From Meiothermus ruber DSM 1279 (GTDB taxonomy: Bacteria; Deinococcota; Deinococci; Deinococcales; Thermaceae), in the NCBI RefSeq assembly GCF_000024425.1, contig NC_013946.1, positions 2,356,001 to 2,420,000 on the forward strand: a stretch of 64,000 bases of DNA. The letters run 5' to 3'. Positions 4,004 to 6,425 of this stretch are shown here, piece after piece. The notes beneath the pieces were generated by a model that saw nothing but the letters and a program-made list of their open reading frames with translations, ran no database searches and had not been told where the DNA came from. How positions within the stretch are numbered: position 1 is the stretch's first letter; every line of letters begins with the position of its first letter. A program made the translations under genes and the position numbers.

Positions 4004-4420
4004 ATGGAGCCAAAATATCCGATTCCCACCGTGGGCGCTTTGGTGAAAGGGCCTTCGGGCCGGGTGCTGATCGTCAAGACCAGCAAGTGGCAGGGCTGGT
4101 GGGGGGTGCCGGGGGGCAAGGTTGAGTGGGGCGAACCCCTCGAGGCCGCTTTGCAGAGGGAGTTTCGCGAAGAGGTGGGCCTCGAGCTCGCCAACATCCG
4201 CTTTGCTCTGCTGCTGGAGGGGGTGTTCGACCCCCAGTTTTACAAACCCATGCACTTTCTGTTCGTCAACTACTTTGCCGAAAGCCCGGATGAGACCGTC
4301 TGTCCCAACCAGGAAATCCTCGAGTGGGCCTGGGTCACCCCAGAGGAGGCGCTCCGGTATCCCCTGAACAATATCACCCGTGCTCTGCTGGGGGCCTATA
4401 CGGGAAGGGGGGCCATATGA
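4004..4420 (+). CDS. NUDIX hydrolase
   Basis: 138 aa with a perfect Nudix box GX5EX7REUXEEXGU at residues 38-60 (Gly38, Glu44, Arg52-Glu53, Glu56-Glu57, Gly59). The family hydrolyses nucleoside diphosphates linked to another group using Mg2+; the substrate cannot be read from sequence. The small size and the FLFVNYFAE strand resemble ADP-ribose or NADH pyrophosphatase-like single-domain enzymes. Its stop overlaps the next gene's start in an ATGA tetranucleotide, indicating translational coupling to the SDR gene. Confidence 0.9.
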   Translation: MEPKYPIPTVGALVKGPSGRVLIVKTSKWQGWWGVPGGKVEWGEPLEAALQREFREEVGLELANIRFALLLEGVFDPQFYKPMHFLFVNYFAESPDETVCPNQEILEWAWVTPEEALRYPLNNITRALLGAYTGRGAI

Positions 4421-5130
4421 GCCGGGTGGCCCTGGTGACCGGCTCGGCCAGGGGCATCGGGCGGGCCATTGTGCTGGCACTGGCGCGGCAGGGGTTCGAT
4501 GTGGCGGTACATTATCACACCAGCGCCCTCGAGGCCGAGCAAACCCGCCAGGAGGCCCTTCGGCACGGGGTGCGGGCCATCCGGGTGCAGGCCGATGTCA
4601 CACGGGTCAAGGAAGCCCAGGGGCTCATCGAGGAGGTGGCCGGGCAGCTCGGGGGCTTGCAGGTACTGGTCAACAACGTGGGCAACTACCTCAAGAAGCC
4701 CATCGAAGCAACCACCCCCGAGGAATGGCACGCCATGCTGGACTCCAACCTGAATGCGCCTTTTTACCTGACCCAGGCCGCCCTCCCCTACCTGGGCCAG
4801 ACCGGCTATGGGCGGGTGGTGAACATCGGCTTCGCCGGCGCACAGAACCTGCTGGCCCGCCCGGAGATTACCCCCTACGTCATCGCCAAAACCGGCCTGA
4901 TTCTGTACAGCAAGGCCCTGGCCCAGCGCCTGGCCCCCAGGGGCATCACGGTGAATGTGGTCGCGCCGGGGGTGGCCGAGAACTCCGTCTCCAAGCCTCT
5001 GAAAGAAATTCCCATGGGCCGGCTGGCACATCTGGAAGAGCTGGCTCGAGCGGTGCTGTTCTTTGTGGATGAGCAAAACGGCTACATTACCGGACAGGTC
5101 ATGGAGGTTTCGGGGGGATGGAATCTTTGA
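4417..5130 (+). CDS. Short-chain dehydrogenase/reductase
   Basis: 237 aa Rossmann enzyme: TGSARGIG cofactor loop at residues 9-16, NNVGNY in place of NNAG, and a YVIAK catalytic Tyr-Lys pair. It resembles FabG-like 3-oxoacyl reductases and 7-alpha-hydroxysteroid-type SDRs; the C-terminal GYITGQVMEVSGGW segment is standard. The ATG at 4417 overlaps the NUDIX stop codon. No neighbouring fatty-acid genes support a FabG assignment, so the substrate stays open. Confidence 0.88.
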   Translation: MSRVALVTGSARGIGRAIVLALARQGFDVAVHYHTSALEAEQTRQEALRHGVRAIRVQADVTRVKEAQGLIEEVAGQLGGLQVLVNNVGNYLKKPIEATTPEEWHAMLDSNLNAPFYLTQAALPYLGQTGYGRVVNIGFAGAQNLLARPEITPYVIAKTGLILYSKALAQRLAPRGITVNVVAPGVAENSVSKPLKEIPMGRLAHLEELARAVLFFVDEQNGYITGQVMEVSGGWNL

Positions 5131-5237
5131 CACTCCCACGGATAAGCACTCTTACATGCAGCACAGGTTTTTATAGCTCTTCTGTTATCGGAGAACGATC
5201 TTGCCGAAACTAGCGTCCAGGTTACGTTCAGTTTGTG

Positions 5238-5341
5238 TATAAGGTGGCATGCTGTGTAGGTGCAGTTGGACTAGACTGCAATTGGTGCTTGGGCTCGTGT
5301 GAAGGGAAGCAGCCCAGGACACCACGCAATAGATTCCCTTC
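5238..5341 (+). promoter_or_regulatory. Candidate structured leader RNA (H-type pseudoknot) of folE2
   Basis: A TATAAG box at 5238-5243 would start RNA near 5250. A 6-bp hairpin follows, TGCAGT (5261-5266) with ACTGCA (5275-5280). Then comes a two-part stem: TGGTG (5283-5287) pairs CACCA (5320-5324) and TGGGCT (5290-5295) pairs AGCCCA (5311-5316). Its loop contains GAAGGGAA (5301-5308), which is perfectly complementary over 8 bases to TTCCCTTC (5334-5341) downstream, giving an H-type pseudoknot. The arrangement looks like a ligand-binding leader, but I could not match it to a known riboswitch class. Confidence 0.5.
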
Positions 5342-5393
5342 TCATATGCACTCGTCAGACTGCTCGAGGTTGCTGACGAAGAAGGAGACGCCC

Positions 5394-6425
5394 TTGCTTA
5401 GCTTCGACAATAAGCAAATCCTCGATACACCCCCCCTCAAAATCGAAAAAAACGGTGGCAAAAAAGCCTACCTGTTCCGCAACACCGACGGCGCGGAACC
5501 CGTCATCGCCCGCCACTACGACCACCAGTTCCGGCCCGACGCGGCCTACAAAGCCAGCCTCCCCGACATGACCGAGACCGTGGACTCGGTGGAGGGGGCC
5601 AACGTCGCCATCCAGCAGGTGGGCATCTCGGGCTTCCGGCTCCCGCTCAAGTTCGCCACCCCAGCCGGCGAGGCCCTGACCCTCGAGGCCCGCGTCACCG
5701 GGACGGTCTCGCTCCAGGCCAACCTCAAGGGCATCAACATGAGCCGCATCATCCGCACCTTTTATGCCCACAAAGACGAGGTTTTTAGCCTGGACACCCT
5801 GGCCCAGGTGGTGCACGACTACCGCCGCGACCTCGAGAGCATGAGCGCCCGGGTCAAGGTGGCCTTCAACTACCCCCTGCTGGTCTCAGCCCTGCGCTCC
5901 GGCCTCGAGGGCTACCAGTACTACAGCGGCAGCTACGAGGCGGTACTGGAAGAAAACGGCACCCTGCGGCGCTTTGTCGAGCTCGACTTCGTCTACTCCT
6001 CGGCCTGCCCCTGCTCCGCCGAGCTGGCCGAGCACGCCCGCGATGTCCGGGGGGTGTACGCCATCCCCCACAGCCAGCGCTCCAAGGCCCGCATCAAGGT
6101 GGAGGTCGCTCCGGACACCTCGCTGCACCTGGAAGACCTGATCCATCACGCCCGCGCGGCCCTCAAAACCGAGACCCAGGTGATGGTCAAGCGCGAGGAC
6201 GAACAGGCCTTTGCCGAGCTGAACGGGGCCTACGTGAAGTTTGTGGAGGACGCCGCCCGGCTGCTCTACGAGCAGCTCATCGCCGACCGGCGCATCCACG
6301 ACTTCCAGGTGGCCTGCTCGCACCTCGAGAGCCTGCACTCCCACGACGCGGTCTCGGTCATCGCCAAGGGCGTACCCGGCGGCTTCCGCGCCGATTTCAA
6401 CGACTTCAGCACCCTCCTGTGCTAG
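5394..6425 (+). CDS. folE2: GTP cyclohydrolase IB (FolE2)
   Basis: Converts GTP to dihydroneopterin triphosphate for folate (and queuosine-type) synthesis. The sequence contains the FolE2 signature [16 protein letters not shown] with the active-site/zinc Cys pair, the GISGFRLPL segment and the C-terminal [21 protein letters not shown]. The TTG at 5394 is preferred because AAGGAG lies 7 bases upstream, giving 343 aa; an ATG at 5346 is the alternative, and the extension from 5235 runs through the structured leader and is not FolE2-like. The stop codon interlocks with that of convergent sufU in CTAG. Confidence 0.9.

Follow-up and report, generated by a model that had tools for sequence, protein, structure and literature searches.

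A conserved pseudoknot and a loop-conserved hairpin form a candidate cis-regulatory RNA in the folE2 leader of Meiothermus

Introduction

What kind of element, if any, occupies the leader of folE2, the gene for GTP cyclohydrolase IB, in Meiothermus ruber DSM 1279? An earlier note on this DNA, made from the single sequence, had proposed a new riboswitch there, with an H-type pseudoknot between positions 5238 and 5341 as its core. Two classes of folate riboswitch have been described, THF-I and THF-II (PMC6800512, PMC9881143). The leader was analysed here within the window, that is, the whole stretch of 64,000 nucleotides under study (2356001-2420000 of the 3,097,457-base genome, G000), and by comparison with related genomes. 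All positions given below are those of the window.

Results

The folE2 gene and its surroundings

The following features define the coding context of the leader:

4417-5130, forward strand: gene upstream of folE2 for an SDR of the TmpR type, a bifunctional dihydropteridine/dihydrofolate reductase (NF012208, 389.8 bits, cut-off 325)
5382-5387, forward strand: Shine-Dalgarno (SD) sequence AAGGAG, identical in 16 of 16 Meiothermus leaders
5391-5396, forward strand: CCC-TTG, the TTG start codon at 5394 with a kept CCC before it (CCC in at least 90% of the leaders; duplex energies)
5394-6425, forward strand: folE2, GTP cyclohydrolase IB, 343 aa (NF010200, 292.9 bits against a cut-off of 215; PF02649 above its cut-off)

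The product of 5394-6425 passed the equivalog model for FolE2 (NF010200), and from the comparison of leaders its translation is read as beginning at TTG 5394. A longer FolE2 starting at 5235, which the earlier note had raised as an objection to its own proposal, was rejected, because only some species have an open 5′ frame there, and the SD at 5382 and the TTG at 5394 are conserved. A UUG start with the CCC kept ahead of it apparently occurs throughout the folE2 genes of Meiothermus.

A genome search found no folE1 in M. ruber. As this absence is accompanied by a match to a pteridine/dihydrofolate reductase immediately upstream, the locus was placed in folate or pterin metabolism, and the TmpR-like gene and folE2 together suggest a pterin gene cluster. 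The two cyclohydrolase genes are mutually exclusive in the compared genomes (G000-G069), and each of the 41 genomes searched for folE1 has either folE1 or folE2, when set against the folE2 search of the order. Two Meiothermus genomes without folE2 (G006 and G011) both carry folE1, which amounts to a switch within the genus.

In most Meiothermus the end of a TmpR-like gene is found just upstream of folE2. In the window, this gene is itself preceded by a Nudix hydrolase gene (4004-4420), possibly for a dihydroneopterin triphosphate diphosphatase, although the corresponding model scored 23 bits against a cut-off of 103.

The 5′ end of the leader

Two elements were located ahead of the pseudoknot region:

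5220-5250, forward strand: conserved block GGTTACGTTCA-N6-GTATAAGGTGGCAT, single copy per genome, solely before folE2, in 15 of 18 genomes of the genus
5261-5280, forward strand: hairpin P1, TGCAGTT-GGACTA-GACTGCA (RNAfold), with arms 5261-5267 and 5274-5280

The promoter-like block lies 5′ of the folded structure; TATAAG at 5238-5243 is likely its -10 element, and transcription would accordingly start near 5250. Judged from sequence, this speaks against the transcript start beyond 5341 that the earlier note had named as a refutation. Scanning the block revealed no consensus sigma-70 promoter and no -35 match, so that it may be an activator-dependent promoter or else a part of the RNA. The same block can also be written GGTTACGTTYA-N6-GTAYAAGGTGGCAT, being conserved on both sides of TATAAG. 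Most of the 16 leaders form a stem of differing sequence at the place of P1; it is missing in L002, cut off in L012 and overlaps the downstream stem S1 in L016.

A loop-to-tail pseudoknot in M. ruber

The pairings that had been claimed in the single sequence are all present at their positions:

5283-5324, forward strand: stem S1, inner part 5290-5295/5311-5316, outer part 5283-5287/5320-5324, with compensatory changes at 8 of 9 aligned pairs
5301-5308, forward strand: 5′ strand of S2, GAAGGGAA, SD-like, 99.2% of cells paired with 5334-5341, three pairs doubly changed
5334-5341, forward strand: 3′ strand of S2, TTCCCTTC, anti-SD-like, supported by the covariation of S2 and the tree null, with a possible alternative pairing to the SD

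The loop GAAGGGAA and the tail TTCCCTTC are indeed perfect 8-bp complements. The argument that such a match is unlikely by chance was overstated for one sequence, as around 1% of hairpins have one by chance: an 8-nt loop-tail match was obtained in 0.9% of tail shuffles and in 6 of the 684 six-bp hairpins of the window. The minimum free energy of the leader was unexceptional as well (z -1.1). In a single sequence the match is thus only mildly unusual, and it is the comparison between species that decides.

Conservation of the pseudoknot in Meiothermus

When the leaders of all 16 folE2-bearing Meiothermus genomes were aligned, the S1/S2 pseudoknot was found upstream of folE2 in every one of them. 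The compensatory substitutions that the earlier note had asked for were seen in both helices: double changes affected 8 of the 9 aligned pairs of S1 and three pairs of S2. For instance, the outer pair of S2 changes from G-C to C-G in L007 and L008, and its inner pair is G-C or, in L001-L005 and L013, A-U. One mismatch in S2 was detected, in L012. When the partners were slid by 1-3 columns the covariation signal was lost, and comparison with shuffles likewise supported the covariation of S1, S2 and the downstream hairpin P3.

To account for shared ancestry, substitutions were placed at random on the folE2 gene tree. In none of 4000 simulations under this tree-preserving null did S1, S2 or P3 attain the values of the real leaders for pairing and double changes together, and for S1 each measure had p ≤ 0.003 under the tree-aware null. 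Single-pair covariation was non-significant, except marginally, once all column pairs were corrected for; because this test lacks power with 16 sequences, helix-level tests were used, and it is at that level that significance was obtained.

A model of the pseudoknot recovered all 16 Meiothermus folE2 genomes with one match per genome, located at folE2, and eleven other genomes gave borderline scores (E 8e-4 to 0.05). By its covariation, with a loop strand paired to a 3′ single strand, S1/S2 is a real conserved H-type pseudoknot of the predicted folE2 5′ UTR. Its loops contain no invariant bases. Since these unpaired positions vary, the pseudoknot does not appear to be the strongest candidate for a recognition site.

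A hairpin with a near-invariant loop before the SD

A third helix was found downstream of the interval of the original proposal (5238-5341), ending a few bases ahead of the SD:

5352-5379, forward strand: hairpin P3, a covarying 7-bp stem with the 14-nt loop ACUGCUCGAGGUUG (5359-5372), proposed recognition element

P3 also precedes folE2 in three genomes of a second family of the order (G053, G057 and G061), with other stem sequences and the same loop. In the 19 genomes of both families, the loop is invariant at 12 of its 14 columns (ACUnCnCGAGGUUG), 98.5% of the stem cells pair and 5 of the 7 stem pairs are doubly changed (3 of 7 within Meiothermus). The pseudoknot has no such counterpart in the second family. 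A kissing dimer through CUCGAG was considered and discarded, as the palindrome is lost in that family. In three of its loci (L139, L140 and L141), another hairpin, able to include the SD, comes after P3.

In a sample of 111 genomes of the phylum, a P3 model found all 19 folE2 genomes, always before folE2 and once per genome; as it was built from those same 19 sequences, the result lies in the model responding nowhere else. The remaining 92 genomes produced just two borderline scores (E 0.004, 22 bits), which were taken as chance, and P3 is absent from the Meiothermus species that use FolE1. Beyond the phylum, no P3 was detected at folE2 in other phyla (among 80 loci, the one clear match was L017, from Meiothermus), in 8 genomes reached through these loci (one weak score of 19 bits), or, by a search that had no positive control, in 291 genomes from the phylum to which G112 belongs. 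The identity of FolE2 to the copy in the window is 70-74% in the second family, compared to about 60-66% in the next phyla.

This distribution suggests a genus-level pseudoknot and an older P3 core. With its conserved unpaired bases in a structured, conserved 5′ UTR, a feature of the riboswitch class, P3 (5352-5379) rather than the pseudoknot is the strongest candidate for a recognition site. The original idea of a riboswitch upstream of folE2 was therefore sustained in part: the conserved structured RNA, the true H-type pseudoknot and the pterin/folate context hold, whereas the best recognition candidate lies outside the interval that had been proposed.

Comparison with known RNA classes

A search of the whole window against Rfam at gathering scores gave no match to THF-I, preQ1-I/II/III, ZTP or cobalamin riboswitches, in agreement with the earlier opinion that the ZTP, THF, THF-II, preQ1 and cobalamin classes do not fit. 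When the leader (5100-5450) was scanned with cmscan at E ≤ 10 against all families of Rfam 15, the only matches were Rothia-sucC and CRISPR-DR22, far below their gathering scores. As Rfam offers no match, no known THF, preQ1 or ZTP class appears to fit, and the element is a candidate cis-regulatory RNA of folE2, conserved, supported by covariation and new to Rfam.

The nearest likeness is to THF-II (the folE motif), also a small RNA near the SD in the 5′ UTR of a GTP cyclohydrolase gene, with a proposed translational action. THF-II lies upstream of folE (FolE1), in Rhizobiales and in metagenomic sequences. Its two stems flank an asymmetric internal bulge, the ribosome binding site is in the right arm of its P1, and its model contains no pseudoknot (PMC6800512, PMC9881143). 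In the folE2 leader, by contrast, the conserved bases of P3 sit in a terminal loop, with the SD 3′ of the stem, P3 has neither a ribosome binding site in the right arm of a P1 nor a conserved asymmetric P1-P2 bulge, and Rfam gave no match at E ≤ 10. THF-I likewise has a pseudoknot and serves folate genes including folE, but its fold is a three-way junction in which the pseudoknot joins a loop to an internal loop (PMC9881143), and it too had no Rfam match.

A further parallel concerns the pseudoknot. In preQ1-II and other H-type pseudoknot riboswitches, a pseudoknot upstream of the SD controls translation, and FolE-type enzymes also feed queuosine synthesis. The folE2 leader shares the H-type pseudoknot upstream of the SD; it differs in the lack of an Rfam match, in the unconserved loops of its pseudoknot and in having the conserved loop in a separate hairpin. 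P3 itself resembles the translational operators bound by proteins, hairpins in which a sequence-conserved loop on a pairing-conserved stem stands directly before the SD. To our knowledge, no such operator is known for a GTP cyclohydrolase.

In a literature collection with few subscription journals, no paper was found that by title or abstract reports a riboswitch for FolE2, describes this element, or treats a Meiothermus riboswitch with a pseudoknot or the GTP cyclohydrolase of Meiothermus.

Discussion

Proposed mode of action

The folE2 5′ UTR (about 5250-5396) is in our opinion probably a cis-regulatory RNA that controls the initiation of FolE2 translation, with a pathway product as signal, P3 for recognition and the pseudoknot for switching. 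The leader would be ordered as a 5′ hairpin, the H-type pseudoknot S1/S2 and P3 with its near-invariant 14-nt loop before the SD. No terminator was found in the leader, which points to translation control rather than attenuation.

In this scheme P3 would be the recognition site and the pseudoknot the switching part, in which the SD-like GAAGGGAG and the anti-SD-like CUCCCUUC strands may exchange each other for the CCC-UUG region and the SD AAGGAG. With the pseudoknot formed, the start site would be free; with the pseudoknot lost, it would be masked. As the signal is probably a product of the pathway, folate synthesis would thereby be under feedback at its first step.

The start site repeats the SD-like/anti-SD-like pattern of S2 as AAGGAG ... 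CCC-UUG, and duplex energies make the CCC-TTG region a possible alternative partner of the S2 5′ strand. For this strand against the start region, energies of -7.3 to -10.9 kcal/mol were calculated in 14 of 16 leaders, with -6.6 in L012 and no pairing in L016, the latter counting against a partner swap. The S2 3′ strand against the SD gave -3.5 to -8.4 kcal/mol, compared to -9.0 to -12.4 for S2 itself. Most leaders would allow the S2 strands other partners through these short complementarities; such pairings are not evidence independent of S2, because SD-like and anti-SD-like strands pair trivially. The strands of S2 also drift slowly: their 16 columns took 12 substitutions, whereas the 12 columns of inner S1 took 27, as expected if they have further partners.

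Function as a switch is likely. The signal may be a reduced pterin or folate that binds the RNA directly, to which we give somewhat less than even weight, or a protein on P3, FolE2 first of all, to which we give slightly less.

Alternative explanations

Among the specific explanations the one that we tentatively place first is a metabolite riboswitch: as an aptamer P3, perhaps together with the pseudoknot, would bind THF, DHF, a dihydropterin or GTP and thereby reduce FolE2 translation. In its favour are the near-invariance of an unpaired loop whose stem covaries, its position beside the SD and before the first folate enzyme, and the neighbouring pteridine/dihydrofolate reductase gene; THF-II also demonstrates that an aptamer can be limited to folE (PMC6800512). 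The models of THF-I, THF-II, preQ1 and ZTP gave no match, though, a hairpin with a 14-nt loop is small for an aptamer, and the pseudoknot loops that might complete it are unconserved. Many cofactor riboswitches occur at several genes, so the restriction of P3 to a single site per genome, together with its absence from FolE1-using relatives, also speaks against this explanation. That restriction is what would be expected of a translational operator, a possible reading that we place next, in which FolE2, another folate enzyme or an RNA-binding protein on the P3 loop would block or open the SD. P3 strictly follows folE2 (19 of 19, with no clear match in the other 92 genomes, and absent from FolE1 Meiothermus), it ends only a few bases from the SD, and a loop conserved in sequence on a stem that keeps only its pairing is the usual sign of a protein operator. 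Against it, the presence of the pseudoknot is left unexplained and we know of no RNA-binding role for FolE2. Slightly more doubtful than either is the specific form of the riboswitch proposal in which P3 (loop ACUnCnCGAGGUUG) would be the folate/pterin aptamer of a new class and the genus-specific pseudoknot its partner-swapping platform. For the folE2 leader as a whole, 'riboswitch' is a plausible label.

Regulation may also not be involved. In a thermophilic genus, strong stems and a pseudoknot without invariant loop bases could belong to a constitutive leader that senses nothing and serves only mRNA stability or an open start region at about 60 °C; as neither the 12 invariant loop positions of P3 in two families nor the strict linkage to one gene is explained in this way, we regard it as unlikely. 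It is very improbable that a DNA-level feature, such as an operator palindrome or a promoter architecture, has been taken for RNA structure: the strongly conserved block at 5220-5250 would suit it, but the stems of S1, S2 and P3 vary between species with pairing kept and with G·U pairs, which argues for RNA, and no palindrome explains the crossed S1/S2 helices.

Significance

The folE2 leader is a compact RNA of about 150 nt at one gene of a cultivable host, and the cis-regulatory role proposed here is directly testable. If P3 binds a folate or a pterin, it would represent a new sensor class, the third of the folate type and the first for GTP cyclohydrolase IB. If it binds FolE2 instead, a metabolic enzyme would have an unexpected RNA-binding role.
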